Below, piece by piece: positions 12,378 to 42,100 of a stretch of DNA of 42,396 nt; position 1 is the first letter of the stretch; every line of letters starts with the position of its first letter. The position numbers and the translations under genes are program-made. This DNA comes from Desulfobacteraceae bacterium (GTDB lineage: Bacteria; Desulfobacterota; Desulfobacteria; Desulfobacterales; Desulfobacteraceae): positions 1-42,396 of the forward strand of contig JAAELK010000148.1 of NCBI GenBank assembly GCA_024226935.1, given 5' to 3'. The notes under the pieces are model-generated. The model made no database searches and had not been told where the DNA came from. It saw nothing but the letters and a program-made list of their open reading frames with translations.

Positions 12378-12518
12378 TTATTTCCCCTTTTTATAAGATT
12401 CCAACATGTAAATTATTTGCCCGTTTGCTGATCTGTGATTCTCTTCTGCCATTTTATTAATCTCTTCCATTAATTTTCTACTAATATGTATGCTTTTTTT
12501 GAACTTTTCTTCTTTCAT
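12378..12518 (-). CDS. Arc-like ribbon-helix-helix repressor
   Basis: This small gene encodes 46 residues, with ATG at 12518 preceded by AGGGA. The sequence FKKSIHISRKLMEEINKMAE then ENHRSANGQIIYMLESYKK aligns with P22 Arc (the strand FNLRWP, then AEENGRSVNSEIYQRVMESFKK): one beta strand followed by two helices with the conserved RS.N.qI turn. Arc-type dimers bind DNA through the beta ribbon and repress phage promoters. It lies in a block of small genes behind the 13.3-kb promoter. Targets may include the 12.1, 13.3 or 25.1 kb promoters. Confidence 0.75.
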   Translation of the reverse strand: MKEEKFKKSIHISRKLMEEINKMAEENHRSANGQIIYMLESYKKGK

Positions 12519-12529
12519 GGTTTATCCCT

Positions 12530-12697
12530 TTAATTTAATTCTTCTATTTTATCATTTAACGCAGCCAACGACCTGCAACCTAATTTTTCAGATTCATCTA
12601 TTAACGCATGAAGCCTTACAGTGTTTTCTGGTGTACGATTTTCTACAAACATTAAATTTTCAAACTCTTGTTTTATTTTTACTAATTTTTCTTTCAT
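12530..12697 (-). CDS. Unknown 55-residue helical protein
   Basis: ATG at 12697 has GGGGTG 5-10 nt upstream. The product is charged and probably all-helical (MKEKLVKIKQEFENLMFVEN, ending ALNDKIEELN). The phrase RLHALIDESEKLG.RSLAAL may be a helix-turn-helix-like hairpin, but no family is recognised. The spacing of 11 bp to the Arc-like gene suggests one transcript and a possible partner or anti-repressor relation, which is speculative. Confidence 0.5.
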   Translation of the reverse strand: MKEKLVKIKQEFENLMFVENRTPENTVRLHALIDESEKLGCRSLAALNDKIEELN

Positions 12698-12709
12698 TTA
12701 ATCACCCCT

Positions 12710-12958
12710 TTAATTATAATATGATTTACATTCTTTTCGTGTTGACCCATTAAGCATATATCTATCAATCATTTTCTTCCCGCCTGTTTTTATATCTTCC
12801 AGGGAGTTAACAGTGTCTTGCAATATTTCTTGTAACTCTTCCATGTTGTACTCGCTCAATAATTCGTATTGATCCGGCATTGTTGGTGCGTTTAAAATAT
12901 AATCAATACCGCTTTGTGTCTCTTCTATCTTATTAATTATGTGGCCCGATTCTTTCAT
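12710..12958 (-). CDS. Unknown 82-residue protein
   Basis: ATG at 12958 is preceded by AAGGGG. The sequence is acidic and helical in the middle (ELLSEYNMEELQEILQDTV) with a basic C-terminus (STRKECKSYYN). It lies second in the operon behind the 13.3-kb promoter, 16 bp after the preceding gene. No motif is recognised. Confidence 0.5.
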   Translation of the reverse strand: MKESGHIINKIEETQSGIDYILNAPTMPDQYELLSEYNMEELQEILQDTVNSLEDIKTGGKKMIDRYMLNGSTRKECKSYYN

Positions 12959-14247: not shown

Positions 14248-14295
14248 TTGAGTTACCTCGTTTTTATTCAAATACTAATTTTCTATAATTAGTAT

Positions 14296-14493
14296 TTAAC
14301 TGGTATAATTTTCTTCTTTTTTATTCAGAATTATTTTTAAATTAACCTGAAGCCCAAATCTACTATAAATTCTATCTCTAAAATATGCTCTTGCTAATTC
14401 CCAATGTGTTTTTTTATTCCAGCATTTGAATTTATGCCTTTGCTGGCCTCCGGTGTATTTTACTGGGAGTGAGTAGTTGTATTCTTTTTTCAT
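14296..14493 (-). CDS. Unknown 65-residue basic protein
   Basis: The start is ATG at 14493, placed after AAAGG in a leader module that recurs upstream of two further genes. The product is basic and aromatic (YSLPVKYTGGQQRHKFKCW, then HWELARAYFRDRIYSRFGLQ). The likely fold is a small alpha/beta unit; no family is recognised. The minus-strand neighbours are equally small, consistent with an accessory operon. Confidence 0.5.
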   Translation of the reverse strand: MKKEYNYSLPVKYTGGQQRHKFKCWNKKTHWELARAYFRDRIYSRFGLQVNLKIILNKKEENYTS

Positions 14494-14512
14494 TTTATTA
14501 CCTTTCATATGG
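14491..14512 (-). repeat. Repeated leader module, copy 1
   Basis: A 22-bp block containing ATGAAAGGTAATAAAATG (minus strand) carries the Shine-Dalgarno AAAGG and the start codon of the 65-residue gene. Copies occur at 14821..14848 and 15016..15042. Confidence 0.7.
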
Positions 14513-14526
14513 TTGTGTTTATCCTT

Positions 14527-14823
14527 TTATTTCCGCTTTCTTGCTTCTTTTAATATATCATCTCTAAATGTTTCCCATTTATTATCAGTTCCTGATTTAT
14601 GTACGATAGAGAATTCAAAAAGATGTTTGGGAAATTTTTTCATCAATTCTATCTCAGCATCATAAACAACATCTAAATCAACCATTTTATTGCTGTCCAA
14701 AATTGTTGTTATTTTAATTATCTCCTCAACTTTTATATCGTTTATATGTTCATCATTTTCTAAGTTCTTTTTAAATTCTTTTTTTATCATTTCTGTGTAT
14801 TTCATCCAATCTGTGTTGGTCAT
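14527..14823 (-). CDS. Unknown 98-residue charged protein
   Basis: The start ATG at 14823 (MTNTDWMKYTEMIKKEFKKN) is set by the AAAGG of leader copy 2; the longer frame to 14859 overlaps the end of the preceding gene. The product is acidic and helical with a basic end (ILKEARKRK). The phrase DLDVVYDAEIELMKKFPKHL is the most compact part. No family is recognised. Confidence 0.5.
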   Translation of the reverse strand: MTNTDWMKYTEMIKKEFKKNLENDEHINDIKVEEIIKITTILDSNKMVDLDVVYDAEIELMKKFPKHLFEFSIVHKSGTDNKWETFRDDILKEARKRK

Positions 14824-14848
14824 TTTATTACCTTTCATATGGTATAAT
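14821..14848 (-). repeat. Repeated leader module, copy 2
   Basis: Identical over 22 bp to copy 1 and over 27 bp to copy 3 (15016..15042). It includes the stop codon TGA of the upstream gene, the AAAGG ribosome-binding site and the start of the next gene. Confidence 0.7.
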
Positions 14849-15015: not shown

Positions 15016-15042
15016 ATTTTATTACCTTTCATATGGTATAAT
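15016..15042 (-). repeat. Repeated leader module, copy 3
   Basis: 27 bp identical to 14822-14848. It contains the end of the 15042..15212 gene region, TATACC, the Shine-Dalgarno AAAGG and an AT-rich spacer before the ATG at 15014. Confidence 0.7.
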
Positions 15043-22225: not shown

Positions 22226-22988
22226 TGTCTATCCTCAATAAGCTTTCTGGTTTGTCTAATAATTTTAATGGTTCTAAGTGTGGGTTGTTTTTAAGTTCTT
22301 CTTCCAATGGATCAAATATTTCATCATTCCATGATTCATTGTTAAGATATGTCTTCGGATGTTTTCTAAACTCTTTATTTGAATTTGATTTTAAATAGTT
22401 TGGTAAAGTTTTAAATATTTCTTCTTTGTCAGATTCTTTTAATCTTTTCCATTTTGCAAAACATTTTTTCCTATCTATTTTTTTATCATAAAGATTCCAG
22501 AATTTTTCAAACTCATTTGCGCATACATTAATTACTTCACTTACTTCTTTTATGTCGGACATGTCTGGTTCTTGTGTTGGGTGCTTCGTGGTGTCGCCGT
22601 TGGTCTGTTCATTGGTCTGTTCATAATTAGTAAAAGTTTGATATTTATCATAATTACAAATAGTTATCATGACTCCCTGTCGGTGCTTTCGTGTGGTCAC
22701 CATAAGTTCGTCCCTTAGATACTTCATAGTGGCTTTCATTTGGGAAGTGCTGTAAGTAGTAGCTTTGAAGCCAACAAACCAAGTTAAGCCTTCTAATATA
22801 TCTTTATACCTGCAAAATATCTGCCCACGCTTTACAGTATGACCACTTTTCCCAGTGCTATCCTTAAAATTAGCATTTAATAATAACCAGTTCCAAGTTT
22901 CTCTTGTGCAAGGTGGAGCTGAGGCAATTTTTGATTTTTCAATACATTTTGCTTTTATTATATAACCGCCAGGAATATAATCAGACAT
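22218..22988 (-). CDS. Replication initiation / replisome-organiser-like protein
   Basis: This encodes 256 residues. The N-terminal half looks like a phage replication winged-helix domain: PPCTRETWNWLLLNANFKD, RGQIFCRYKDILEGL, SQMKATMKYLRDELMVTTRK and GVMITICNYDKYQ. An acidic/Thr linker follows (about 125-160), then a C-terminal DnaT/DnaD-like module (FEKFWNLYDKKIDRKKCFAK, FRKHPKTYLNNESWND). Such proteins bind the origin and recruit the helicase, which here is encoded by the next gene with an 8-bp overlap. An origin could lie within or near this gene; I could not identify iterons. Confidence 0.65.
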   Translation of the reverse strand: MSDYIPGGYIIKAKCIEKSKIASAPPCTRETWNWLLLNANFKDSTGKSGHTVKRGQIFCRYKDILEGLTWFVGFKATTYSTSQMKATMKYLRDELMVTTRKHRQGVMITICNYDKYQTFTNYEQTNEQTNGDTTKHPTQEPDMSDIKEVSEVINVCANEFEKFWNLYDKKIDRKKCFAKWKRLKESDKEEIFKTLPNYLKSNSNKEFRKHPKTYLNNESWNDEIFDPLEEELKNNPHLEPLKLLDKPESLLRIDND

Positions 22989-22990
22989 AA

Positions 22991-23110
22991 TCAGGAGCCT
23001 TTTATTTTATCAATCTTATCCAATATCAAATCTACTTTTAAGCTTCGTTTACGGGTGTATTTTAATGAAGCAATTAAGCCGGACAGTTTTCTTAATAAAT
23101 ATATTTTCAT
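22991..23110 (-). CDS. 39-residue basic peptide
   Basis: The ATG at 23110 overlaps the stop of the winged-helix gene (TAATG), with GGTGA just upstream. The product is Lys/Arg/Leu-rich (MKIYLLRKLSGLIASLKYTR, then KRSLKVDLIL...), and its TGA precedes the next ATG by 2 nt. It is likely amphipathic or DNA-binding. Function unknown. Confidence 0.45.
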   Translation of the reverse strand: MKIYLLRKLSGLIASLKYTRKRSLKVDLILDKIDKIKGS

Positions 23111-23292
23111 TATTCACCATCCAATACTTTTAAATGCCTACTAACAGTCAAAACACTGAATCCAGTGCCTTCTGATATTTCTTTTTGAGTCTTATTCGGG
23201 TTTTCTTTCATCCATTTTATAATTTTGGCACGGTTCTTGTCGCCTATCTCTTTCCCGTGCATTCCACGACCATCTACAGCTTTAAGTTTCAT
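23110..23292 (-). CDS. Small helix-turn-helix regulator
   Basis: This encodes 60 residues, with ATG at 23292 and AAAGG upstream. The C-terminal half is a winged-helix-type recognition unit: IIKWMKENPNKTQKEISEGT then GFSVLTVSRHLKVLDGE (residues about 24-60). The N-terminus is basic (KLKAVDGRGMHGKEIGDKNR). It is the minimal DNA-binding part of an ArsR/HTH_24-like protein and may regulate the replication genes that follow it. Confidence 0.65.
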   Translation of the reverse strand: MKLKAVDGRGMHGKEIGDKNRAKIIKWMKENPNKTQKEISEGTGFSVLTVSRHLKVLDGE

Positions 23293-23368
23293 ATTTTACC
23301 TTTTTATTATATTTAAAATTATAGTATAACTTACACTCGAAAAAAATATAAGTCAAACTATTTTTTAA

Positions 23369-23497
23369 TCAAATCAGCTTTATCCTACGCGCCCATTCTA
23401 AAAGCGCAGCCGCCCAACCAATAACAGCAGCCCAGTTTTTGCTTAATACATTCCCACCAATATTAAGTAGAATCATTGTTCCAATAATAGCATCCAT
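23369..23497 (-). CDS. 42-residue membrane-associated peptide
   Basis: ATG at 23497 has AAGGA 7 nt upstream. The product MDAIIGTMILLNIGGNVLSK then NWAAVIGWAAALLEWARRIK is hydrophobic with a C-terminal basic amphipathic end, suitable for one membrane helix or hairpin. It starts just after the stop of the 39-residue gene. Confidence 0.5.
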   Translation of the reverse strand: MDAIIGTMILLNIGGNVLSKNWAAVIGWAAALLEWARRIKLI

Positions 23498-23506
23498 TTT
23501 TATTCC

Positions 23507-23626
23507 TTATTTTTTAATCATAATCTCACCACAAACTTTACATGCGTAAGGACTACTATTCTTAGGCTTTAAAAGTAAATATAAAACCAGAGGTATAATC
23601 CACAATCCGGTCGTGATAAACACCAT
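23507..23626 (-). CDS. 39-residue membrane protein with C-terminal Cys pair
   Basis: The frame from ATG 23626 encodes MVFITTGLWIIPLVLYLLLK followed by ...YACKVCGEIMIKK: a transmembrane helix then C-x2-C. This is the common phage layout tfGLWlpvwil.......C..CG. The ATG has no ribosome-binding site; upstream in the same frame the family-like sequence continues (TCTHVINII) to a stop, while the well-started GTG frame (23711) overlaps out of phase. A frameshift joining the two is possible. Confidence 0.45.
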   Translation of the reverse strand: MVFITTGLWIIPLVLYLLLKPKNSSPYACKVCGEIMIKK

Positions 23627-23711
23627 TATAATATTTATTACATGTGTGCATGTAAGAATAATTTAATATTTCACTAAGAACTGATATTACTTTTTGTTTT
23701 GATATTTTCAC
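23562..23711 (-). CDS. 49-residue frame with strong start, possibly frameshifted
   Basis: GTG at 23711 has the same strong leader (AAAAGGAGAAACAA) as two neighbouring genes. The product begins MKISKQKVISVLSEILNYSY and ends after 49 codons, overlapping the 39-residue membrane frame out of phase. The first about 17 residues look genuine; the rest is less protein-like. Either two genes overlap or one gene is interrupted by an indel near 23655-23665. Confidence 0.35.
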   Translation of the reverse strand: MKISKQKVISVLSEILNYSYMHTCNKYYNGVYHDRIVDYTSGFIFTFKA

Positions 23712-23723
23712 TTGTTTCTCCTT

Positions 23724-23987
23724 TTATTTTTCTATTTCCTCATAATTCTTTTTGAAAAAACTATCCTTCACTGGGTAATAAGTCCCCTTCTCTATATCCT
23801 CAACTATCCAATCGCCTATCCTAACCACTGCTATTTCACCATGCATTGTTTTTACTTTTATGATTGGCTTATTATTTTCAAAATCAGCGCAATAATTACC
23901 AGTCAGCTCATTAAAAACTTGGTTTTTATTTTCATTGGTGAATTGAACCGCTTTAATTTTTCTTGGTAAGCTTTTATATTCTTTCAC
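23724..23987 (-). CDS. Conserved small phage protein (PGYG/DW-type)
   Basis: This encodes 87 residues. The start is GTG at 23987 with GGAGAAGCAA upstream. The pattern YKSLPRKIKAVQFT, IIKVKTMHGEIAVVRIGDWI and GTYYPVKDSFFKKNYEEI is that of a very common small phage protein (yrk.P..v.AvqFtg.......i.t.eG.m.a..GDwii.gv.Ge.Ypck.dif...Ye). The family's function is not known to me. It belongs to the early operon. Confidence 0.7.
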   Translation of the reverse strand: MKEYKSLPRKIKAVQFTNENKNQVFNELTGNYCADFENNKPIIKVKTMHGEIAVVRIGDWIVEDIEKGTYYPVKDSFFKKNYEEIEK

Positions 23988-23999
23988 TTGCTTCTCCTT

Positions 24000-24263
24000 T
24001 TATATGTATTTATTCACATCATCACAAATTGCCTCAGATGCACCTTCTTTACCCCTGGCATAATCCCATAATAATTGCTCTGTTTCGTTGACTCTTGTTT
24101 GTAATTTATCAATACTTGTTTTAAAAAACGTAAATTTGTTATCATTTATTTCAGTTTCTTCAATAATTTTCCTCAACCTATGCAGAAAATCTATGTTTTT
24201 ATTTTCTCCATAAACCTCTATAATTCTGTCATGTATCCATTGTAAAAATTCTTTATCTTTCAC
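24000..24263 (-). CDS. Conserved small phage protein (EFLQWIHDR family)
   Basis: This encodes 87 residues. GTG start at 24263 with AAAGGAGAAACAA. The N-terminus EFLQWIHDRIIEVYGENKNI followed by DFLHRLRKII matches a small family found beside other early phage genes; the rest is helical and charged. It overlaps the upstream gene by 11 bp. Function unknown. Confidence 0.6.
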   Translation of the reverse strand: MKDKEFLQWIHDRIIEVYGENKNIDFLHRLRKIIEETEINDNKFTFFKTSIDKLQTRVNETEQLLWDYARGKEGASEAICDDVNKYI

Positions 24264-24513
24264 TTGTTTCTCCTTTCAATTTTGATTTAATCATGTTGCA
24301 CTTTTTGTTACGTGTTTTATTGTCAAGATGAATTAATTGACAATACGCACCAAACATGCTCGCCAATACAAGCCTTTCGCTTTTAGTCAAAGGTTGCTCT
24401 GAGTGTATTAATTTCCATCCAATTTCGTCTACATCTTCAGGATTTACCCATGTTGTGTTGTCTGTTAGATATATGTAATTATTATTTTCTTGATCCTGTT
24501 TTGATTCACTCAA
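24253..24513 (-). CDS. Unknown 86-residue early protein
   Basis: The start is TTG at 24513, 6 nt after GGAG. The product has a flexible Gln/Asn-rich start, a compact middle (DEIGWKLIHSEQPLTKSERL, VLASMFGAYCQLIHLD) and a basic end (RNKKCNMIKSKLKGETSER). No family is recognised. Second gene of the leftward early operon. Confidence 0.5.
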   Translation of the reverse strand: MSESKQDQENNNYIYLTDNTTWVNPEDVDEIGWKLIHSEQPLTKSERLVLASMFGAYCQLIHLDNKTRNKKCNMIKSKLKGETSER

Positions 24514-24558
24514 TTTTTTCTCCTAAGTTAATGTTTAGGGGTTATGTTAATAAAGAAT

Positions 24559-25068
24559 CTATACTTCTTTTTCTAATAACAATTTAACCCTATTCAATTC
24601 TTCTTTTGTGTGCGGGGTGCCAGCTCCGTTTAATTCTAAGTACCATTGCAAAACCTCTTTTCTTGTTTCAAGATTATTTATGTTTAATTTTGCATGCATT
24701 TTTCTGCCAAGTTTAATATCATAATCTTTATAAAGTGTGTTGTAAGCTGGTATTTCATTATTTATAAATAACATGATTGCTGTAATTCTTTGCAACCCAT
24801 CAACACAAACAAAAGGCCCATCGAAATGATCCATCCATCCAACACAATTGAAATAAAGAACATCAACGCCGGGACCATTTGCAAGTTTATATTCGATATA
24901 TCTTATTTGTTGTTCTTTGGTCCATACATGACCACGCTGAAAGTCAGGATTTAATTCAAGATTATCCTCTTTTATAAAATCAGCAATTCTTTCAACAAGA
25001 TAATTAAAAGAAATATCAACCATATAATTACCATCTCGTGTATATTTTGGGATATCTTTATATTTCAT
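24559..25068 (-). CDS. Stand-alone DUF262 (GmrSD N-domain-like) protein
   Basis: This encodes 169 residues. DUF262 hallmarks are visible: LELNPDFQRGHVWTKEQQIR (residues about 38-57), FVCVDGLQRITAIMLFI (about 86-102; the DGxQR nucleotide-binding/hydrolysis motif) and YLELNGAGTPHTKEELNR. DUF262 is the ParB/sulfiredoxin-like NTPase half of GmrS-type restriction enzymes that attack modified phage DNA. Here it is phage-encoded, without the DUF1524/HNH nuclease half. It is the first gene of the leftward early operon. It might be a decoy or inhibitor of host restriction, or a regulator; this is inference. Confidence 0.75.
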   Translation of the reverse strand: MKYKDIPKYTRDGNYMVDISFNYLVERIADFIKEDNLELNPDFQRGHVWTKEQQIRYIEYKLANGPGVDVLYFNCVGWMDHFDGPFVCVDGLQRITAIMLFINNEIPAYNTLYKDYDIKLGRKMHAKLNINNLETRKEVLQWYLELNGAGTPHTKEELNRVKLLLEKEV

Positions 25069-25104
25069 TAATTTATTTTCTCCTTTTCAGTTAACGTTAA
25101 AACA

Positions 25105-25133
25105 ACTTTAAGTTTATTTTTGTGTTTTGTCAA
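25105..25133 (-). promoter_or_regulatory. Leftward early promoter
   Basis: TTGACA (25128-25133, minus strand) and TAAAGT (25105-25110) are separated by 17 bp. The DUF262 ATG is at 25068. The palindrome TTAACGTTAA (25091-25100) lies in the start-site region and may be an operator. Confidence 0.7.
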
Positions 25134-25142
25134 CATATTTTA

Positions 25143-25171
25143 TTGACATGTATGTATTTTATTGTTAGATT
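25143..25171 (+). promoter_or_regulatory. Rightward early promoter
   Basis: TTGACA (25143-25148) and TAGATT (25166-25171) are separated by 17 bp; the Rha ATG follows at 25203 after AAGGAGG. Its -35 box and that of the leftward promoter form the inverted repeat TGTCAA-N9-TTGACA, so polymerases at the two promoters would contact adjacent faces and may compete. Confidence 0.7.
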
Positions 25172-25202
25172 GAATTTAAGTTAAAAATAAAAAGGAGGTA
25201 TC

Positions 25203-25913
25203 ATGGTAGACGGATTAGTTAAAATTATTAATGATGAACCGAGAGCAGGGACGTGGTTAATTGCAAAAGGATTTGAAAGAGAGCATAAACATATTTTAAG
25301 ACTTGTCTCTAATTATAATTCTGATTTTTTAGACTTTGGCGCTTTAAAAACTCAAAAGTCTAAATCAACAGGAGGAAGACCAGTTAATGAAATATTATTA
25401 AATGAAAATCAAACAATGTTTTTAGGAACTCTTTTACGAAATAGCGATATTGTTGTTAAGTTTAAGAAAGAATTAATAATAAAATTCGACCAGATAATTA
25501 AAGAATTAAATAAAACAAAAGAGATGCAGAAAGATGATAAATGGATTGCATCAAGAAAACAAGGTAAATTAATAAGACTTGAAGCCACTGATTGTATTAA
25601 AGATTTTATAGTATACGCTGAGAGTCAAGGCAGTAAAAATGGTAAAATGTATTATACCAGCCTCACAAGAATGATGAACGGTTTATTATTTATTGTTGAT
25701 GGAAAATTCAAAAACCTAAGAAATGTTATGTCTCCAAGGCAATTAATGACTGTTTCATCAGCAGAGCAAATAATTGAAAAAGCTTTAAAAAAAGGAATGA
25801 AAAACAACATGTTTTATAAAGATATCTACAAACTTGCTAAAGAAAATGTTGGTATCTTTGCGGAATTACACGGTAAATCATCAGTAATTGAATCTTTAAA
25901 AATAAAGGAATAG
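25203..25913 (+). CDS. Rha-family phage regulatory protein
   Basis: This encodes 236 residues, first gene of the only rightward operon. The N-terminal about 100 residues match the Rha domain: TWLIAKGFEREHKHILRLVS, then LDFGALKTQKSKSTGGRPVN, EILLNENQTMFLGTLLRNSD and IVVKFKKELIIKFDQ. The C-terminal half (about 115-236) is a separate helical domain with a basic end. Rha proteins are linked to lysogeny or IHF-dependent control in lambdoid phages, but also occur in lytic ones. Position next to the divergent promoters suggests autoregulation. Confidence 0.8.
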   Translation: MVDGLVKIINDEPRAGTWLIAKGFEREHKHILRLVSNYNSDFLDFGALKTQKSKSTGGRPVNEILLNENQTMFLGTLLRNSDIVVKFKKELIIKFDQIIKELNKTKEMQKDDKWIASRKQGKLIRLEATDCIKDFIVYAESQGSKNGKMYYTSLTRMMNGLLFIVDGKFKNLRNVMSPRQLMTVSSAEQIIEKALKKGMKNNMFYKDIYKLAKENVGIFAELHGKSSVIESLKIKE

Positions 25914-25916
25914 ATA

Positions 25917-26138
25917 ATGAGTAAAGTTAACAGGGTAGATATAAGCGAAGAATCCCAATTTACAATAAAAACAGCTCTAATTAATGATAGTGTTGTTTCA
26001 TACGACGCTTGTTCAAGCAATAGAAAAGCTGACTATAGCGAAGAACATTTCCGTTATATAGGCAAAGGAAAGATTCATACAATAGACGGTATTGATCAAG
26101 AATCTAAAGAAGAAAACCATTTTTGGGTTTATCGTTAA
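25917..26138 (+). CDS. Unknown 73-residue protein
   Basis: ATG at 25917 has AAAGGAA upstream, 3 nt after the Rha stop. The product has a small beta-rich pattern (YIGKGKIHTIDGID at the end of a charged middle), ends HFWVYR, and has two Cys-free halves. No family is recognised. It lies in the recombination operon, where small proteins often act as host-nuclease inhibitors; no sequence evidence supports that here. Confidence 0.5.
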   Translation: MSKVNRVDISEESQFTIKTALINDSVVSYDACSSNRKADYSEEHFRYIGKGKIHTIDGIDQESKEENHFWVYR

Positions 26139-26155
26139 AATAAATAGGAGGCAAT

Positions 26156-26377
26156 ATGAATATATCATTAAACATAGACGGACACGATTTTGACATTGAT
26201 TATTTCACAGAAGAAGGTCAAAAAGAAACAAATGAGCAACCAGGGTTTGAACCTTATGTGTGCATTGATCATGTTTTTGAAAATGGTGATGATGTAACTG
26301 ATATTTGGGCTGAAATAATTTACGAACAGCATTATGAATTGCTGAAAGATGCTGTGTTTCATATGGAGGGAGAGTGA
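26156..26377 (+). CDS. Unknown acidic protein
   Basis: This encodes 73 residues, with AGGAGG 5 nt before ATG at 26156. It is strongly acidic (about 20 Asp/Glu): HDFDIDYFTEEGQKE, HVFENGDDVTDIWAEIIYEQ. A DNA-mimic role such as inhibition of a host nuclease next to the ERF/exonuclease genes is conceivable from charge and position only. Its TGA shares a base with the ERF ATG. Confidence 0.55.
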   Translation: MNISLNIDGHDFDIDYFTEEGQKETNEQPGFEPYVCIDHVFENGDDVTDIWAEIIYEQHYELLKDAVFHMEGE

Positions 26378-26967
26378 TGAGTGAAGAAAATAAATTAACA
26401 GGATATCAAAAACTTACATTAATTCAAAAAGAGATTAAAGCCTCAAAGGATATAACCAATGATTTTGGAGGCTTTAATTATAGAAATGTAGAAAGTATTT
26501 ATGAAGCTGCAAAGCCTTTGATTGATAAATATGGTTGTTCTCTTATTATGACAGATGATATTGTTGAAAAAGCTGGTAAATTATATGTGAAAGCAACAGC
26601 AAAACTTATTGATTCTGATCCAGATCCAGGTGAAATAATAACAGAGGTCAGCGCATTTGCAAGGGAGACAGAATCAAGAACAAAGTTTTCATCTGAGCAG
26701 TTAACCGGAAGTGCTTCTTCTTATGCAAGAAAATATTGTCTTGGTGGGTTGTTTCTTCTTGATGATAATAAAGATGTTGATTCTATGAAGCCAGATAAAC
26801 CACAGAAACCACAACAGAAAAAAGAATTAACTCCAGAAACTCCTGAAATGTGGAAGAATGCAATAGTCTCTTTAAAAGAAACCAATGGGTTTGAAGAAAT
26901 AGAAAAAAGAGTTTTCATTTCTGACAAAAACAAAGAGCTCTTGAGAAAGGATGCTGATGTTTTTTGA
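26377..26967 (+). CDS. erf: ERF-family single-strand DNA annealing protein
   Basis: The ATG at 26377 (196 residues) with GGAGG upstream is preferred to the GTG 3 nt earlier. The ERF core is visible: LIQKEIKASKDITNDFGGFN-YRNVESIYEAAKPLIDKYGCSL, TAKLID and TESRTKFSSEQLTGSASSYA followed by RKYCLGGLFLLDD.KDVDS. A Pro/Lys/Gln linker (about 135-150) joins a short helical C-terminal part. It anneals complementary strands produced by the exonuclease encoded next, with an 11-bp gene overlap. Confidence 0.85.
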   Translation: MSEENKLTGYQKLTLIQKEIKASKDITNDFGGFNYRNVESIYEAAKPLIDKYGCSLIMTDDIVEKAGKLYVKATAKLIDSDPDPGEIITEVSAFARETESRTKFSSEQLTGSASSYARKYCLGGLFLLDDNKDVDSMKPDKPQKPQQKKELTPETPEMWKNAIVSLKETNGFEEIEKRVFISDKNKELLRKDADVF

Positions 26968-27574
26968 TATAGATCAGAACGAACCAGAATGGTTTAAATT
27001 AAAAGCTGGTAAAGTTTCAGGTTCAAAAATAGGGACTGTAATGGCTCACTATGGCAAAAGCTTTGGTGAGCCTGCCAAAAGATATGCTTTAAAAATTGCA
27101 CTGGAACAATTAACCGGTAATTATATTCATGATGAATTTAAAAACAACCATATGAAAAGAGGATCAGAGCAAGAACCAGCCGCACGAAAATTATATGAAG
27201 ATCATTTCTTTTGTGATGTTTCAAATGGTGGGTTTTTTGACAATGGAAAAACTGGTTGTAGTCCAGATGGTTTAGTTAGTGAATCCGGCTTAATAGAAAT
27301 TAAATCTATTATATTCCCTGCTCAGTTTTTGATTATTGAAAAACAAAAATATGATACAAAATACAAGTGGCAACTTGCATTTAACCTGAAAGAAACTAAA
27401 AGAGAATGGATAGATTACGTTTCTTACTGCTCAGATTTCCCTGAAGATCGTCAGTTGTTTATTCAGCGATTAACAACTGACGATTTCAAAGAAGAGTTTG
27501 AAAAGATTGATATCAGGCTTGAAGAGTTTTTTAAATTAGTTAAAACAAACAAAGAAATGATTTTAAATCAATAA
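26957..27574 (+). CDS. YqaJ/lambda-type recombination exonuclease
   Basis: The ATG at 26957 (205 residues, MFFDIDQNEPEWFKLKAGKV) has AAAGGA 5 nt upstream; another ATG lies 6 bp earlier. The PD-(D/E)XK site is visible: Glu73 in GSEQEPAARKLY, Asp104 in TGCSPDGLV, and Glu114-Ile-Lys116 in GLIEIKS. Gln137-like KWQLAFNL follows. It degrades one strand of duplex ends to feed ERF. The C-terminal codons contain an inverted repeat (27447-27484) whose stem recurs in the terminator after the gene. Confidence 0.85.
   Translation: MFFDIDQNEPEWFKLKAGKVSGSKIGTVMAHYGKSFGEPAKRYALKIALEQLTGNYIHDEFKNNHMKRGSEQEPAARKLYEDHFFCDVSNGGFFDNGKTGCSPDGLVSESGLIEIKSIIFPAQFLIIEKQKYDTKYKWQLAFNLKETKREWIDYVSYCSDFPEDRQLFIQRLTTDDFKEEFEKIDIRLEEFFKLVKTNKEMILNQ
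27447..27484 (+). repeat. Inverted repeat inside the exonuclease gene
   Basis: ATCGTCAGTTGTT (27447-27459) and AACAACTGACGAT (27472-27484) form a perfect 13-bp stem with a 12-nt loop, within the coding sequence for EDRQLFIQRLTTDDF. The same 12-base stem and the loop word TTCAG occur in the terminator at 27588..27623. Confidence 0.8.
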
Positions 27575-27587
27575 TGAAATAAAATTA

Positions 27588-27623
27588 AAATCGTCAGTTG
27601 TTAATTCAGACAACTGACGATTT
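27588..27623. terminator. Bidirectional terminator between exonuclease and tail-fibre genes
   Basis: A perfect 14-bp stem (27588-27601 with 27610-27623) and an 8-nt loop lie between the converging exonuclease stop (27574) and the fibre stop (27625). On the minus strand it is followed by TTTTAATTTTATTT; on the plus strand by the weaker TTTATTAT. It is a near copy of the hairpin inside the exonuclease gene. Confidence 0.8.
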
Positions 27624-27624
27624 A

Positions 27625-29907
27625 TTATAAGACCTTAACAATAATACTTTTATTTACTGTTCTTATCTGCCCCACAGCTATTTTAAATTGTTCAAAATCA
27701 ATATTTTCTTTTTTAACAGCAATTCCTTTTATTTTCCCATTATCATCTACAGGTATAACATAATCACCAACATTACCAGAATAAATATTTACTGGCACTT
27801 TTCCAGAGTAGGCGATTCTATCTACCTTAAATCTTAACTCTTCAGCCTTTTCCTCATATACTGAATATTCTTTTTCATATGCTTCAAGGTCTTTTTTGTG
27901 TGCATCCTCAACCATTTTATTAAACTTATGTCCATAATCAAGCAGTCTCTTTTTTACACTTGTTTTAAAGGATGACATTGCTTTATTATATCTATTTTCT
28001 TCAGTTTCAAGAATAGCTTTTATTTTATTTTCATAATCTTGTTTTTCTTTTAATGCCTCTGTTGTTAATACTCCTGTTAATTCAGCTGGTTTTTTAATAT
28101 TTGATATATCAGGTTTTATTCTTTCAGGTCGCTCGCTCTTAAATCTTTCGAAAAATTTATCTTCATTGGGTTCTTCTATATTTAACTTTTTAGCATATTT
28201 TCCCTTATCTAATCTGGGTTTTTCAGGAAGAGTTAAACCATTCATCCATACATCACCACCAACATAGCTTGGGCTTGTAGATTTAATACAAAAAGATATT
28301 GCTTCTGAAAAATTATCAGTTAATAAACCATCTTTATCATATCCAACAATATCGCCTTTTTTTATTTCTCCACATTTTTCACTCTTCGTTTCATATTCTG
28401 CGTAATCAGTCCCGGATGCGTTTACTGTCCCACCTGCGTTTATGCTTCTGCTTGTTGTTGTTTCTGTTGCTATATACATAGCGGCTAAAGCTGTGCTTGC
28501 AGCTGCACCAGCAACATAACTAAATTTAGAAGAAGATTTTGCCAATAAAACATCACCAGCGTTTATCCCGTTTAGCCACACATTATCAGCAGTGCCACCA
28601 TAATTGGCATCAATAAGCATATCTTGATCGCCGACGATAGTCGGTCGTCCTGACTGCCTGTGCACTTCAAAAATTTTAGACCCAGGATATTGATAATCAC
28701 CGTTTGCATCTGTATTAAATAAAGTTGCTCCTTCCGGCCCAAAAAATCTAAAATACTGACCTCTGTTTTGTAGCCTGAAAACAGTAACCACATCCATTAA
28801 AGCCCATAATGTTGAAATAGATGCTTGCTGCTGCGCTGCTGTGGCAGTTGAGTTCCATCCACCGAATGTAATTCCTGGTTCTTCTAATAAATCAGGTGGA
28901 TTTTTTTGGTTAAAAAGACTTACAAGACAATGCCCAACACCAGCTGGATTTAATATCTCTAACTGAGCGTCAGTCCTTCCAACTCCTTCCGAGCCAATAG
29001 TGCCAGTAATACTTATGCCTCCGCTTGCCACTAAAGGGCCACTCTCTTTTTCTTTTAAAGATTCTCCTATATTAATGTCATTAAAAGAATCAATATCTAT
29101 TAATCTTTTTGCAGTTCCTGCATCATTTTTGCCATATAAACCAGACCCATTAGTTGTTATAGTTATATTCCCCCCTGAGTCAATGGTATTTCTTACAAAT
29201 GCGCCACTTGCACCTGTTGGGTCAGATGTGGGCGGTATATATTTACCTTCGTTTGGATCTCCTGTAACCTCTGTTGATAAATCAGATGAATCCCATACAC
29301 AAAGACCACCTTTGCCGTCCTCTAAAACAATATAATATCCATAAACAGTACCATCTTTTGTTTTTAATTCAGCTATAGTTGCAACAAATCCAAGGTTTCC
29401 AAGACCTCCTAGTTCACTGACATTTATAGACGTAAGTCCATTGCCAGCCGTGTTTACAACTGGAATGCTCCCTGGGGCTGAGGGAAACTCAAAATCAATA
29501 TTAGTTGATGTATTCCATATTTCTGCACTAACTTTTATTGCACGTTCTATACTTTCGGCTTGATCTTGATTTTGCTTTGTTAATTTGTCAAGTGCATCTT
29601 CTATATTCTCAGATGAAAAATCTCCATGTGGAGGCAAATCAAGCTCCTGAGTAAGAGGGACTGTTCTTTCAAGCAATAAATCATAATCGCTCGTTATAGA
29701 AGCAGTAAGTGTAACATAGTTTGAAGTCCCAACAGTGACACTATAGTCTGTTGTGAGTGTTAAGATTTCTGTAACACCTGTGGCATTGGTTATTTTTGTT
29801 ACAATCACCTCTTCTTCATCTGTGATATCCCATGTAATTGTAAAAGGGCCTGTTGTACCTGAACCTGTGTATTGATCTGGTCTGTAGCTTGATGATGATA
29901 TTGTCAT
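27625..29907 (-). CDS. Tail fibre with T7-like N-terminus and autoproteolytic-type C-domain
   Basis: This encodes 760 residues, last gene of the late transcript. Residues 1-130 match the T7 gp17-like attachment domain (SYRPDQYTGSGTTGPFTITW, LLLERTVPLTQELDLPPHGD, NIEDALDKLTKQNQDQAESI). The middle is beta-rich shaft. From about residue 499 comes a C-terminal module of the type DYAEYETK...GDIVGYDKDG, AISFCIKSTSPSYVGGD and, after a long insertion, VDRIAYSGKVPVNIYSGNVG, similar to Peptidase_G2-like fibre ends. The insertion (about 550-690) is Lys/Glu-rich coiled coil, longer than I expect for this module. It probably binds the host and may be processed during trimer assembly. Confidence 0.75.
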   Translation of the reverse strand: MTISSSSYRPDQYTGSGTTGPFTITWDITDEEEVIVTKITNATGVTEILTLTTDYSVTVGTSNYVTLTASITSDYDLLLERTVPLTQELDLPPHGDFSSENIEDALDKLTKQNQDQAESIERAIKVSAEIWNTSTNIDFEFPSAPGSIPVVNTAGNGLTSINVSELGGLGNLGFVATIAELKTKDGTVYGYYIVLEDGKGGLCVWDSSDLSTEVTGDPNEGKYIPPTSDPTGASGAFVRNTIDSGGNITITTNGSGLYGKNDAGTAKRLIDIDSFNDINIGESLKEKESGPLVASGGISITGTIGSEGVGRTDAQLEILNPAGVGHCLVSLFNQKNPPDLLEEPGITFGGWNSTATAAQQQASISTLWALMDVVTVFRLQNRGQYFRFFGPEGATLFNTDANGDYQYPGSKIFEVHRQSGRPTIVGDQDMLIDANYGGTADNVWLNGINAGDVLLAKSSSKFSYVAGAAASTALAAMYIATETTTSRSINAGGTVNASGTDYAEYETKSEKCGEIKKGDIVGYDKDGLLTDNFSEAISFCIKSTSPSYVGGDVWMNGLTLPEKPRLDKGKYAKKLNIEEPNEDKFFERFKSERPERIKPDISNIKKPAELTGVLTTEALKEKQDYENKIKAILETEENRYNKAMSSFKTSVKKRLLDYGHKFNKMVEDAHKKDLEAYEKEYSVYEEKAEELRFKVDRIAYSGKVPVNIYSGNVGDYVIPVDDNGKIKGIAVKKENIDFEQFKIAVGQIRTVNKSIIVKVL

Positions 29908-29916
29908 AATTCCCTC

Positions 29917-32544
29917 TTAATTTTGGATTTTGTCGAACCATCTGCGCCCGCCAAACTCTTTGTTATATCTTTTTTCTTGCCTTTTTCTTGACCCTGGAGA
30001 CACAGCATCACGAACATGGTTTAATAGTGTGTAATCTAATAAAGCTCGTGAATACCATAGGTTTATATAAGGAGTGTTGTTGAGTCCCGTATAAATTGCA
30101 TCGGCTGCCTTTGCATCACCCCGGTATAAATCCTGAAACAAATTAACAGCATTTGCAGCTGTCCCCACTACTGGGCCAGCTAATGAATCGACCAACCCCC
30201 CACCAAACCTGTTATGTTTTGAAAAAATAAAGTCCCCATAAAAACCAGCACCTCCACCTTGCAAGGCTGCTTTAAGCCATGTTTCAGGCTTATTCGGATC
30301 TCTCGGAGTATTCCCTTTTGCAAGATCTTTCAAGGTCATTGCAGCGTATCCAAACACAAGGGAATTAGCAATTAAGAAAGAAACCCCTGCTTTATCAGAC
30401 TGATTCACTCCTTTATTATTCCAGCGTTGAGACTTTAAAAACCTTTGCTGAAAAGTCCACGGGAAAGCCTTGAACTGTGCCATACTTCTTAAAAGTTCGC
30501 CTTTTACTGTTCCTGGCTTTGTTCCCTGTAACATCGCTGCCCTTGTTCTGTCATCTGAAGCAATAATGCTTGTGTCTATTTCATCTGCTACAAAGGCAAA
30601 ATATCTTCTTCTAAGGTCTTTTTTTGATTCTTCAATTATCTCTTTTTTATTAAGGGAAACATTCTTTAATCTTTCCTGAAGCTCTTCTATTTTAATTAAA
30701 TTTTCTTTAGAACCGCCCCTTAATAATTTCTTTTTTTCTGATTGAATTTGTTTATTTATATTGCTGATGTCTTTCTTTCTTGCTGCTTCAGATATTTTAA
30801 TTTTATCTTTTGCAATTGTTCTCTCAATAACATCATCGCTGACGTTCATTATTTCGTCAGCCAACATAAACTCTTTTTTGTTAATTTTTCTGGTAGATCT
30901 TTTAAGAACAGCCCAATCGTTTGCGTCAAGCCCATGGAGCTTTAACACCTCTCCCATTTGCCCAAGGTTGTTGAATGACTTTCTTTTAAGATAAGCCAGT
31001 CTACCTGATAGTTGGTGGCTCGCCCCCATCTGCCCGGTTTCTGTAATCAGGTTAAGCCCTGAAGCTTTAAAGAAAACGTCCATTGCTGATGACATTCTGC
31101 CTGGCTGCCCCGCATCTGGGTCAAATCTGTTCATAATAGAAGATATCATCCCGTCGTAACCATATCCCATAGCGTGAGCCACTTCTTTTATTTCCTTACT
31201 TCCAAGCCCAACGGTGTATTGTCTAAAAGCCTCGTTCCATGCTTCAAACATGTTTTGACCACGGTATCTGATATTCATAGCATTGATGTATATATCAGCT
31301 GTTGCGCTTAATGTTGCCTGCCCTAACTTTGCCATGCTCTGCCATGCTCTAACGCCTGACATAACTTGTGCTGAAGTAAGGTTCACAGGGTTCATTGTTT
31401 CGCCACTTGCCTCCGCAAAAGATACACCGACAGTACCTTCTCTTTTGTCAAAATCCCCCTCTATCTGGCTTAATAACTTTTTACTTTCAGGCAAGTTCTT
31501 CAGCTCTTGCCTTTGTTCCTGAAGTAACTTTTTAACCATATATTCGGGGTTTGTGCCTAACTTATTCATCAAGGCATAGTTTCGGCTTGATCTGTTCATG
31601 TGAGTCATCACAGACTCAAATATAGTCCCTCTGCCATACTTGGTATTGTAGGCGATAACAGAATCAGCATCCTTGTATTGAAACACTCTGTTCTTTGCAA
31701 TTTTTGTTGCTAAATTTTTCGGTGCTGAGAATGAAGGTATTTCTTTTACATCTGAAACACCAGTTACTATTTCAGTGTAGACTCTTCTCAATATTCTTTC
31801 AGACTCATCTCTGGTCAAGCCGGGAAATGTTTCTTTTAAGTCAAGATATCCAAGTTGATCTTTCACCCATACATCTTCAGTGGCTTTGTGCATCCTGAAG
31901 CGGTCATGTGTTTGCGGTGTCCAGCCTTCAACTTTACCTATCTGCGCCCCTTCTCTGTTCAGCGCATCCCGAACTATTTCAGAATACTTGCTTATAATCT
32001 TCCCTATTTTACGAGCTTCATTGTTTTTTGTAGAAAGTGGTTCTCTTATTTCTCTAATTATATCATCGTTGAAATCTTTGCTTTTTAAAAGTTTTCTGAC
32101 ACCTTGAACGGCTTTATTTGATTCTCCCATAAAAGAGTTGGCCCAATCATTAAAAACGCCATTTCTTAAACTTTGTATTGAAGATCTACCGCCCTTTACT
32201 TTTAAGTGAGTCCCAAAAAATAAAGCTTGCCACCCTTCTTTTATTGGTTTTGTTTTTAATAAAATGCCTTTCTTTGGTGCTGTGTCTATGACATCTTGCA
32301 ACCCTCTTTTAATCTCTGCACTTTTTATAACATTATTATAAGCATCAAACTTTTGTCTAAGCTTTGCGTTTCTTTCCTGATATGCAAGTTTTGTTATCTC
32401 GTTATCTAAAAAAGCCTTTGGGTCATCAACCGCACCTGAAGCAATATAGCCCTCTCTTTTTGCTTCAACTACTTCAACAATCTCCGCAACCTCTTTTTCT
32501 GATAATCCTGTTTTTTTTGCAACTTCTTCAATACATGTTGGCAT
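29917..32544 (-). CDS. Large internal virion / DNA-ejection protein
   Basis: This encodes 875 residues. It starts with a possible small helical domain (CIEEVAKKTGLSEKEVAEIV) followed by long helical stretches; the middle has AEASGETMNPVNLTSAQVMS and KLGQATLSATADIYINAMNI, and the C-terminal part has short hydrophobic segments (SFLIANSLVFGYAAMTLKDL) and ends basic (KRQEKRYNKEFGGRRWF). This layout fits the largest ejection protein of epsilon15/BPP-1-like podoviruses, which is released into the cell envelope to form a DNA channel. No transglycosylase motif is clear. It sits after two other ejection-protein genes. Confidence 0.65.
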   Translation of the reverse strand: MPTCIEEVAKKTGLSEKEVAEIVEVVEAKREGYIASGAVDDPKAFLDNEITKLAYQERNAKLRQKFDAYNNVIKSAEIKRGLQDVIDTAPKKGILLKTKPIKEGWQALFFGTHLKVKGGRSSIQSLRNGVFNDWANSFMGESNKAVQGVRKLLKSKDFNDDIIREIREPLSTKNNEARKIGKIISKYSEIVRDALNREGAQIGKVEGWTPQTHDRFRMHKATEDVWVKDQLGYLDLKETFPGLTRDESERILRRVYTEIVTGVSDVKEIPSFSAPKNLATKIAKNRVFQYKDADSVIAYNTKYGRGTIFESVMTHMNRSSRNYALMNKLGTNPEYMVKKLLQEQRQELKNLPESKKLLSQIEGDFDKREGTVGVSFAEASGETMNPVNLTSAQVMSGVRAWQSMAKLGQATLSATADIYINAMNIRYRGQNMFEAWNEAFRQYTVGLGSKEIKEVAHAMGYGYDGMISSIMNRFDPDAGQPGRMSSAMDVFFKASGLNLITETGQMGASHQLSGRLAYLKRKSFNNLGQMGEVLKLHGLDANDWAVLKRSTRKINKKEFMLADEIMNVSDDVIERTIAKDKIKISEAARKKDISNINKQIQSEKKKLLRGGSKENLIKIEELQERLKNVSLNKKEIIEESKKDLRRRYFAFVADEIDTSIIASDDRTRAAMLQGTKPGTVKGELLRSMAQFKAFPWTFQQRFLKSQRWNNKGVNQSDKAGVSFLIANSLVFGYAAMTLKDLAKGNTPRDPNKPETWLKAALQGGGAGFYGDFIFSKHNRFGGGLVDSLAGPVVGTAANAVNLFQDLYRGDAKAADAIYTGLNNTPYINLWYSRALLDYTLLNHVRDAVSPGSRKRQEKRYNKEFGGRRWFDKIQN

Positions 32545-39110: not shown

Positions 39111-42100
39111 TTAGTCAAACTCCCCATTAAATCCTGATATTGTCATCTCACTTTGACTTGTACTTGCTACTCTTGCCTCAATCTGGAATTCGTCTCCTGG
39201 TTGTAAAAATCCTGAGGCTTTAACAGGAAATGATGAGACACCAGTACTTATTGTATGCGCTTTTATTACACTATCAAAAGAACCTGTCCCAGAGGTCAAG
39301 TTTATCCTAAAATCATATGCTTTGTCCGAACCAGTTTTTACACCTGTGAGATTTGCTTCAAATACTCCCATTAATGGTGCTAATGTTGTAATCTTAAAAG
39401 TATTATCCCCTATGTATTTAAAACGACTTGTCTCTAAACCTTCAACAACAGTACCAAGTTCTACAGTGTACCATGTATTTGCTAATGAAAATGTAGTAGT
39501 GGTGCTGTTGGTGTTCACATATGCAAATAATGTATTATGGCTGTCCTCTTCATCTCCGTTGCCATTAGCATTTATATATTTGCTGTCTTGCGTTAAAGAT
39601 CCTGTGTTCCACGTGCCTGTTTCTGTTGCTTGCCATGTTTTGCCTTCTGGGATATTTACTTGAACAGTATTGGTTTGTTTGTTATAGACATATGACCCAC
39701 CGTCATAGTCAGCGCTTCCGTCTGTATCTATAAGTATTGTGTTTCCATCTACAAGGCTTGTTCCTGTATCAGTTAGGGTTATAGAGTTACTTAAAAAGCT
39801 ACCTGTATCCGCACCATTGTAACTTATTGCATCTATTTCAAAATAACCACTCCCTACATTGCTTATAGTATAAGTTCCATTTGTATAATTCGAGAATGTT
39901 GATAAAACAACTACTTGATATTGATATACAGTAGAACCAGTGTAATTGAACCTTGCTATAGTCCCAGATGGATTAGTAACACTCGTTACGGATGTCGCCC
40001 CAATAGAAGCATCTGCAACGGCTGTATATGTTCCAGTTGTTCCCGGTGTAAAATAATCACCCGTTCCGGTATTGTGGGATTGGTTGACAGATATAGCACT
40101 TTGTATTGTAGGTGAAATATCAATACAGCTCCCACTTGCTCCTGTCGAAAATACCGCTGAAGTTATCGCAGAAGGATTTGACAATGCACCTTCTATTTTT
40201 ATTGATGATGATGTGCTGCTTGAATTTTGTTTAAAATTTACTTGGTCTATAACTGCGATTTCAAGATTTGTTAATGTAAGCCCTCCGTCATAGTCTATAA
40301 AATCTGACCTTCTTGCTACAAACCTACCATTACCAGTACGTGCATCAACAGCTTCACCTGCTAAGGTTCCTAATGTTTGACTCGTTCCTAAGCAAATTAT
40401 ACTTACAAAATCAATCCCAACTGTTCCATTGACATCAAAACATTTCGCCCCTGTCCCGGTCATTCCTATTGAAGCATCTATTATCCTTAACCCAGCATTA
40501 GAAGATCCTGTGATAAATGTTCCTGTTCCTGTGTATAATAGATAAGTGTTAAACCCATATTCAGACATTTTTAGAATAGTTGTAGAATCATCTGGTATAA
40601 CCAATCTGTCAGAAAAAACGATTATATTATGGAATACATACATTTTTGCTTCAAGTGTAATCACTCCAGCCACAGCAGTCGGTAAATCTGTTAAAGAGAA
40701 TACATCAACAGCATAAGCAGGATCAAGCCCTGCTATATTCCGGCTCTCACCTGAAGTATTTACAATCTTAGCTGCATTTGACGTGATAACAGATTCGCCT
40801 CCTGATCTTAAATATGATACTTTAATTTCATCATCGGTAAGGACTCTATCATACACCCTTACAAAATCTATATTCCCGTCATAATAGTCAGATGAGCCTC
40901 CACGACTTCCTATATATGGAGTAGTTCCCGAGGCGGTATTAATGGTTATGGCATCGTTTGTAATTACTTTTACACCATTGACCCACATATTAACCTGAGT
41001 TCCGTTATATGTAGCTTGGATTAAAAACCAATCGCCTTCTGATAGAATATTCCCGGTATCAGAAGAATCGTCATTGGTGAATATTCTTAATGCAGCGTCT
41101 ATTTGCTCTAATGAAAAAACATCGTCACCTGTTTCAGTGCCGTATCTAAATATAACCCCTGATTGAAGTGTTATATCATCAATTTTAACATAAGCCTCAA
41201 TTGTTCTTACGTTTGCACCTGTTGGTAATCCTGTGGAGTTTGAAAGAGTAAAATAATCAGCAGTTCCATTTAATACAGCACCACTTCCAAATGCTCCACC
41301 TGTTGAGGTAACTAACCCGGCACTTGTACCAGTTGCATTATTGACCAGTGGGCCTTTATCATATTGTGTTGTTATTCCTACCTGTGAGAAATCTATACTT
41401 AATACCTGACCGTCTTGACTTCCGTATACTTCACTTGACACTACATTATCAGCGTAAGCAGTTGTTGCAACTTTAGTGCTATTATCGTCTGTACTCTGAG
41501 TTGTTGCTGTTACTCCGTCATTTAGAACTCCGTCGTAAGATCCGGCGGTTATATTTCCATTTGTAGAAATGGCTTTTCCTGTAGATGCTTGATCAATTAC
41601 TAATCCAGTTGTTCCAGTTGATAAAACGTTAGAGTTTTGAATATGTACTAATTTTCTAATATTTGTATCTGCTGAACTTGATGCAAAATGAGCAACAGCC
41701 CCATAAGTTAAATCATTACAATCAACTCTTACTCCCGGTTGCGTTGTATTGCTCGAAGAACCAAGAAGAACTGTTCCATTTGAATCTCCAAGGTTAATAT
41801 CAATTGCGCTTGTTGAGTCTCCTGTGCCTGAATGCCTTATTTCTATAAGATTCCTGAGTATATCACTGCTACTTAAAGAATTTATTGAAATAGCAGTGCC
41901 AGCAGTTAGAGAATCACCAGTAATCGCAAGAATATCCCCTTCTGTTTCGCTTGAATCTAATATACCGTTATTAGCTTTTAATATAGTGGCTTGCGCTGTT
42001 CCGTTTACATCTAACTTTTCAGTAGGGACTTTTCCTATCCCCATGTCTCCATCATTCTGTATGGTTATTAAATCAGTACCCGCATTACTAACAAATTTTA

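Follow-up and report, generated by a model that had tools for sequence, protein, structure and literature searches.

A probable intrinsic terminator between convergent phage genes is a near copy of a hairpin within the adjacent exonuclease gene

Intrinsic (Rho-independent) terminators between convergent genes are characterized by a stem-loop and a T-rich tail in the vicinity of both stop codons. Since terminator sequences diverge quickly, the birth of new intrinsic terminators is hard to catch. Attenuators of the trp type comprise four RNA arms with the options of 1:2, 2:3 and 3:4 pairing and with translation proceeding over arm 1, while dispersed palindromic elements are represented by kinds such as REP, RPE and inverted uptake-sequence terminators. 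With respect to the emergence of hairpins, template switching between imperfect arms makes or perfects RNA hairpins, according to PMC8794818, and PMC8604942 describes template switching in coding genes of yeast, together with neighbouring amino-acid changes. The hairpins of diversity-generating retroelements (DGRs) feature GC-rich stems of 7-10 bp and 4-nt GRNA loops, as described in PMC3240598. No described case of a terminator born by copying of a coding hairpin was found among the papers listed by searches of one open-access library, which is weak evidence of absence.

The window analysed here is the whole 42,396-nt contig JAAELK010000148.1, which was binned with a 6.1 Mb assembly (6.09 Mb) of a Desulfobacteraceae bacterium. 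A 139-nt repeat is present near both contig ends (3-141 and 42258-42396), and because of this self-overlap the 42.4-kb contig probably represents a complete phage genome, either circular or terminally redundant. PHROGs matches comprise the large terminase subunit, a head-tail adaptor, the major head protein and tail proteins; proteins of all these kinds are also annotated in the record of epsilon15, and a podophage-like genome type is proposed. Adjoining the tail genes, 39111-42332 (- strand) encodes a protein of 1073 aa that contains a concanavalin A-like lectin domain but matches no PHROGs family.

Apart from the ORFs at 25203-27574, all those longer than 145 aa reside on the - strand. The divergent intergenic region at 25069-25202 harbours promoter-like sites at 25143-25171 (+) and 25133-25105 (-), which are no more than matches to the consensus (37 such sites in the region scanned versus 39.5 in shuffles). 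Judged from the strand layout of the ORFs along with the promoter-like sites at 25105-25171, two main transcription units probably start divergently at about 25.1 kb and converge at a hairpin referred to below as H2. Minor convergent points may exist besides H2, for instance near the 87-aa + strand ORF at 12490-12753, which is mostly clear of - strand ORFs. On the - strand, 24559-25068 encodes a small protein with a match to the N-terminal domain of GmrSD-type nucleases, its neighbour being a Rha-family regulator at 25203-25913. The final gene of the rightward unit encodes a YqaJ-family exonuclease of 207 aa (26951-27574, +; Pfam YqaJ, 2.3e-13; PHROG 149 exonuclease, 4.6e-33) and is directly preceded by the gene of an ERF-family single-strand annealing protein (26374-26967, +; Pfam ERF, 8.4e-32). 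Head-on to the exonuclease gene, the leftward unit ends with a tail-fibre-like gene of 760 aa (27625-29907, -), which matches PHROGs tail and tail fibre families and has no Pfam match.

Two hairpins are located at this junction. H1 resides within the exonuclease coding sequence at codons 166-178 (27447-27484, +; arms 27447-27459 and 27472-27484) and consists of perfect 13-bp arms, with a folding energy of -17.7 kcal/mol alone and -20.3 kcal/mol with flanking bases. H2 lies between the convergent genes (27588-27623; arms 27588-27601 and 27610-27623), 143 nt apart from H1; it starts 13 nt past the exonuclease stop codon, is located 1 base from the end of the tail-fibre gene and comprises perfect 14-bp arms and a loop of 8 nt (-19.8 kcal/mol on the + strand and -18.1 kcal/mol on the - strand). 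An earlier sequence-only reading had claimed that the stem ATCGTCAGTTGT occurs four times, as inverted pairs in gene and terminator, and all four occurrences are indeed exact: without mismatch, the sequence is found in the contig at 27447-27458 (+), 27473-27484 (-), 27590-27601 (+) and 27610-27621 (-) and nowhere else. The same reading had taken the terminator for a duplicate of the coding hairpin that has lost 6 nt, which agrees with a direct alignment in which 35 of 37 positions match next to a single 6-nt gap. The gap corresponds to CGATTA at 27467-27472 (+), which encodes Arg173-Leu174 in H1 and is missing from H2. Both hairpins have the loop word ATTCAG in common, and their likeness ends at most 3 nt from the stem ends. 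The longest exact match amounts to 14 nt in direct orientation (27473-27486 versus 27610-27623) and to 18 nt in inverted orientation, namely between the right arm of H1 and the left arm of H2 (27469-27486 versus 27588-27605). RNA folding of 27430-27640, which had been suggested as a check on both strands, yielded z = -6.4 (+) and -6.0 (-).

For comparison, 100 relatives of the exonuclease were used, comprising 80 of 190 confirmed viral loci, the complete set of 12 genome loci and a choice of 8 from 221 phage records; many of them are near-identical, so that 61 distinct segments are represented. The nearest relative used (among the best 80 of the 190 viral loci, the 12 genome loci and the 8 chosen phage records) exhibits 57% protein identity. 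Single-query searches for close phage relatives returned no locus for either the exonuclease or the tail fibre, one locus at 37% for ERF and six loci at 20-30% for the portal, the portal and ERF loci being included in the screen for arm-sharing hairpins only. In 193 related genomes, the exonuclease obtained three matches, its own and two at 25-27% identity, the latter of which enter no count. Moreover, 18 of 389 genomes of the order, the own genome included, match parts of 25200-29907, and among the places listed only the own genome covers H1 or H2.

Perfect hairpins with arms of at least 10 bp and loops of 3-16 nt occur only three times in the 42.4 kb, the third besides H1 and H2 being located at 14270-14297 with 11-bp arms and a single G-C pair. 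About 1.15 Mb of comparison DNA was screened, encompassing 98 exonuclease-relative loci (585 kb; L009-L016 and L025-L116, with L013 and L014 omitted since longer stretches of the same phages were used instead), 7 other viral loci (89 kb), 20 stretches of the same assembly (146 kb) and 7 phage records (330 kb). In these sets, 53, 13, 25 and 54 hairpins with arms of at least 9 bp were found, respectively, and not one pair with a common 9-nt arm; the phage contig contains 7 such hairpins and one such pair. With an 8-nt criterion, arm-sharing pairs were absent from all 100 exonuclease-relative loci, which are not independent of each other since many relatives are near-identical prophages. A chance likeness of H1 and H2 is excluded by these controls. 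In the 6.09 Mb assembly, an exact inverted pair with 11-nt arms is present only as H1 and H2, and a search with the left arm joined to the loop word, tolerating at most 3 mismatches, finds only three other places, each with 3 mismatches. The exact inverted pair is likewise absent from the 192 other genomes and the viral contigs scanned. Searched against the phage collection, each hairpin obtained only matches with E of at least 1 among the matches listed (7 of 7 and the best 10 of 13, respectively).

Further short repeats are present elsewhere in the contig. The 22-nt ACCATATGAAAGGTAATAAAAT occurs in three exact copies on the - strand (14492-14513, 14822-14843 and 15016-15037; 0 expected in shuffles), which are located near the starts of small - strand ORFs and followed by differing downstream sequence; it is taken as a further short regulatory segment that was copied, perhaps a ribosome-binding region. 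The ribosome-binding-like AAAGGAGAAACAAGTGAAA is found three times on the - strand, once with 1 mismatch (23706-23724, 23982-24000 and 24258-24276), at spacings of exactly 276 and 276 nt. For two of these copies, the position coincides with the start of an 87-aa ORF (23724-23987 and 24000-24263); the two ORFs are only 30% identical and possibly represent an old tandem duplication.

With regard to its function, H2 displays the stable stem-loop with a short loop that serves as a criterion for intrinsic terminators, although only 5 of its 14 pairs are G-C. On the - strand, the TTT of the stem end is followed by TAATTTTATT and the site was scored as terminator-like, whereas on the + strand the TTT of the stem end precedes the poor tail ATTATAAG and the site was not scored as a terminator; the T-tract is good leftward and weak rightward. 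None of the other terminator-like sites in 22400-32400, of which there are 8 including H2, has a stem as long as that of H2, although the terminator scan alone proves little since shuffles contain 5.3 +/- 2.4 such sites. H2 is probably a bidirectional intrinsic terminator, stronger leftward, with a termination activity that is predicted from these features. It would mainly serve the long leftward unit for replication, head and tail, and to a lesser degree the short rightward unit for recombination. Like intrinsic terminators between convergent genes, it combines a stem-loop with a T-rich tail near both stop codons, but it differs in that its arms are duplicated inside the upstream gene, its stem is A/T-rich and its tail is good on one strand only. 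A hairpin of at least 8 bp (loop 3-10) within 90 nt past the exonuclease stop codon was found in none of the 98 relatives with enough sequence (2 of the 100 were dropped), all of which show at most 57% protein identity; among the relatives examined, the terminator-like hairpin following the exonuclease is specific to this lineage. In a mechanical count over these 98 relatives, the longest ORF that directly follows the exonuclease shares its strand in 62 cases and occupies the opposite strand in 16, whereas 20 have no such ORF. Hence, the head-on neighbour may not be unique to this phage. Among the 8 phage records fetched, 7 are annotated, and in each of these the exonuclease gene and the next gene have the same orientation.

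The origin of H1 can be approached from the encoded protein. In the homologous segment of the 100 relatives, one locus has an insertion and one a gap, so that at least 98 are devoid of indels and the H1 segment is native coding sequence rather than an insertion. Arg173 is invariant in all 61 distinct relatives, and Leu174, Leu169 and Gln168 are shared by 35, 58 and 41 of the 61, respectively. Other residues of H1 are unusual: Thr176, encoded by the right arm, occurs in 0, Gln172 in 1 and Arg167, encoded by the left arm, in 3 of the 61 distinct relatives. Furthermore, H1 contains the minor codons CGT (8%), TTG (13%) and CGA (5%; frequencies in 29 ORFs of the contig). The homologous 45-mers of the relatives fold at -7.9 +/- 3.6 kcal/mol with a best value of -16.5 kcal/mol, and 0 of 100 reach the -20.3 kcal/mol of H1. 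Random synonymous recodings of the H1 peptide yielded arms of at least 12 bp in 14 of 100,000 cases, and none of 5,000 folded recodings was as stable as H1. Considering the odd residues, the minor codons, the unstable segments of the relatives and the rarity of such recodings, H1 was probably created or perfected in this lineage. We propose that the unusual residues and minor codons are traces left when a hairpin was forced upon the coding sequence; alternatively, they could indicate that the gene was the recipient of sequence. Most simply, H1 would have arisen when replication switched templates from one arm of a quasi-palindrome to the other; its present role is probably restricted to coding. 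H1 would thus resemble the template-switch hairpins of PMC8794818 and PMC8604942, which include perfect inverted repeats generated at once, also in coding genes, and clustered amino-acid changes; unlike in those accounts, a second copy of the hairpin is located 143 nt away here and is now terminator-like.

The near identity of H1 and H2, their rarity, their absence from the relatives examined and the protein constraint on the 6 nt are established, and we infer that copying most likely proceeded from the gene to the terminator. Since the missing nucleotides are the codons of the invariant Arg173 and of Leu174, the intergenic copy is the shortened one, and the protein conservation thus favours the direction that the sequence-only reading had assumed. 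With the gene as source, H2 merely loses 6 loop nucleotides, which is free outside coding sequence, and with H2 as source an exact gain of codons is required. That H2 is older and the hairpin in the exonuclease gene formed by copying of H2 into the gene would explain the unusual Thr176 and Arg167 as well as the three minor arginine and leucine codons; such an arrival, however, would have had to occur in frame and without length change, with the 6-nt gain placed exactly at Arg173, and also to keep Gln168 and Leu169, which renders it quite unlikely. Because the longest exact match is the inverted one, copying may have been inverted or have taken two steps, the left arm of H2 being an inverted and its right arm a direct copy of the right arm of H1. 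The 18-nt and 14-nt matches cover 32 of the 36 nt of H2 with no substitution, but the loop TCAG, which matches H1 in direct orientation, would be left to chance, and a single direct alignment scores higher (54 versus 46), so we consider this route unlikely. Both hairpins could instead be copies of a sequence-specific site, such as an operator, a recombination or replication signal or an RNA-binding hairpin, that is maintained because one protein binds both. Identical arms and the identical loop word are in line with this idea, which is nevertheless improbable in view of a copy number of only two across the phage and its 6.09 Mb assembly, the location of one copy inside coding sequence, the lack of an Rfam match at the gathering threshold and the half-site spacings of 26 versus 20, which are 6 bp or about half a helical turn apart; a dimeric operator was rejected on account of this spacing. 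The palindromic unit, its sharp boundaries and the position of H2 directly past the tail-fibre stop codon would also suit a minimal mobile or dispersed palindromic element or a DGR target hairpin beside the tail-fibre gene. No further copies were found, however, and a dispersed palindromic repeat family was rejected because there are only two. As in the DGR targets described in PMC3240598, the hairpin is directly downstream of a tail-fibre type gene, but the stem and loop of H2 are unlike the DGR hairpins presented there; in addition, the reverse transcriptase family PF00078 has 0 matches in the assembly (the control search was positive in 3 of 14 genomes), and a DGR target was rejected for the lack of this match and the wrong hairpin form, leaving either type of element highly improbable. 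The reading preferred here, with a probability of roughly 0.6 for the whole, holds that short-range copying of H1, accompanied by the 6-nt loop loss, would have given birth to H2 as an intrinsic terminator at the junction of both units, H1 itself stemming from a template switch. As the relatives found reach at most 57% protein identity, they offer no intermediate state, and the proposed order of events derives from a single genome.

The sequence-only reading had further claimed that the arms pair across both hairpins and may thereby switch between termination and antitermination. Cross-pairing is borne out, since over 27430-27640 its energy of -57.5 kcal/mol is almost that of the two local hairpins (-56.8 kcal/mol); a functional switch is not, because any copied palindrome pairs crosswise, making mutual complementarity no sign of a switch, and a sizeable + strand gene downstream is lacking. 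After H2, the + strand contains no ORF above 138 aa, and those present overlap - strand genes. On the - strand, which has the good T-tract, H2 is made before H1 and hence cannot be controlled by it. A switch is thermodynamically possible on the + strand, yet unlikely. Its most specific form would be a translation-gated attenuator resembling the trp leader, in which a ribosome holds arm 1, arm 2 captures arm 3 and rightward read-through yields RNA antisense to the tail-fibre gene, while otherwise 1:2 and 3:4 form and the rightward polymerase terminates; if this applied, the antisense RNA would lower tail-fibre expression early in infection. Consistent with such a device, the minor codons sit in arm 1, and 2:3, formed by the right arm of H1 and the left arm of H2, is the longest pairing (27469-27489 with 27585-27605, 95% over 21 nt) and, at -23.7 kcal/mol, also stronger than the other three. 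In RNA starting from 27400, the predicted probability of 2:3, an equilibrium value without folding kinetics as are all those given here, amounts to 0.97-0.99 at 27605-27609, when transcription has passed the left arm of H2 but not yet entered the right one. Masking of arm 1 by a ribosome leaves 2:3 at 0.89 at 27625 and 0.55 at 27640, and masking of arm 2 gives 0.99 for the terminator 3:4. Once the right arm of H2 has emerged from RNA starting at 27400, however, the local hairpins reach 0.45 at 27625 and 0.91 at 27640, and in RNA from the gene start 2:3 attains 0.22-0.65 at 27605-27609 and the local hairpins, 3:4 among them, 0.999 at 27625. A ribosome placed at the stop codon gives 0.97 for 2:3 at 27605 but 0.976 for the terminator at 27625. 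The local hairpins are favoured since about 100 nt are transcribed between the completion of H1 and the start of H2, and the 1:4 pairing also sets a helix beside the same tail. Mutually exclusive terminator and antiterminator pairings thus occur in equilibrium folding as in trp-type attenuators, but here arms 1 and 2 are situated near the end of a 207-codon gene, a leader peptide is absent and no sizeable gene to be regulated follows on the same strand, so that attenuation appears decidedly improbable.

Taken together, the creation of hairpins by template switching is already known; a terminator beside its probable coding ancestor is unusual. At this junction, the apparent source and its product lie side by side, and the protein constraint on the source provides the direction. 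If general, such a process would connect template-switch hairpin mutation with the way in which phages gain new regulatory elements.
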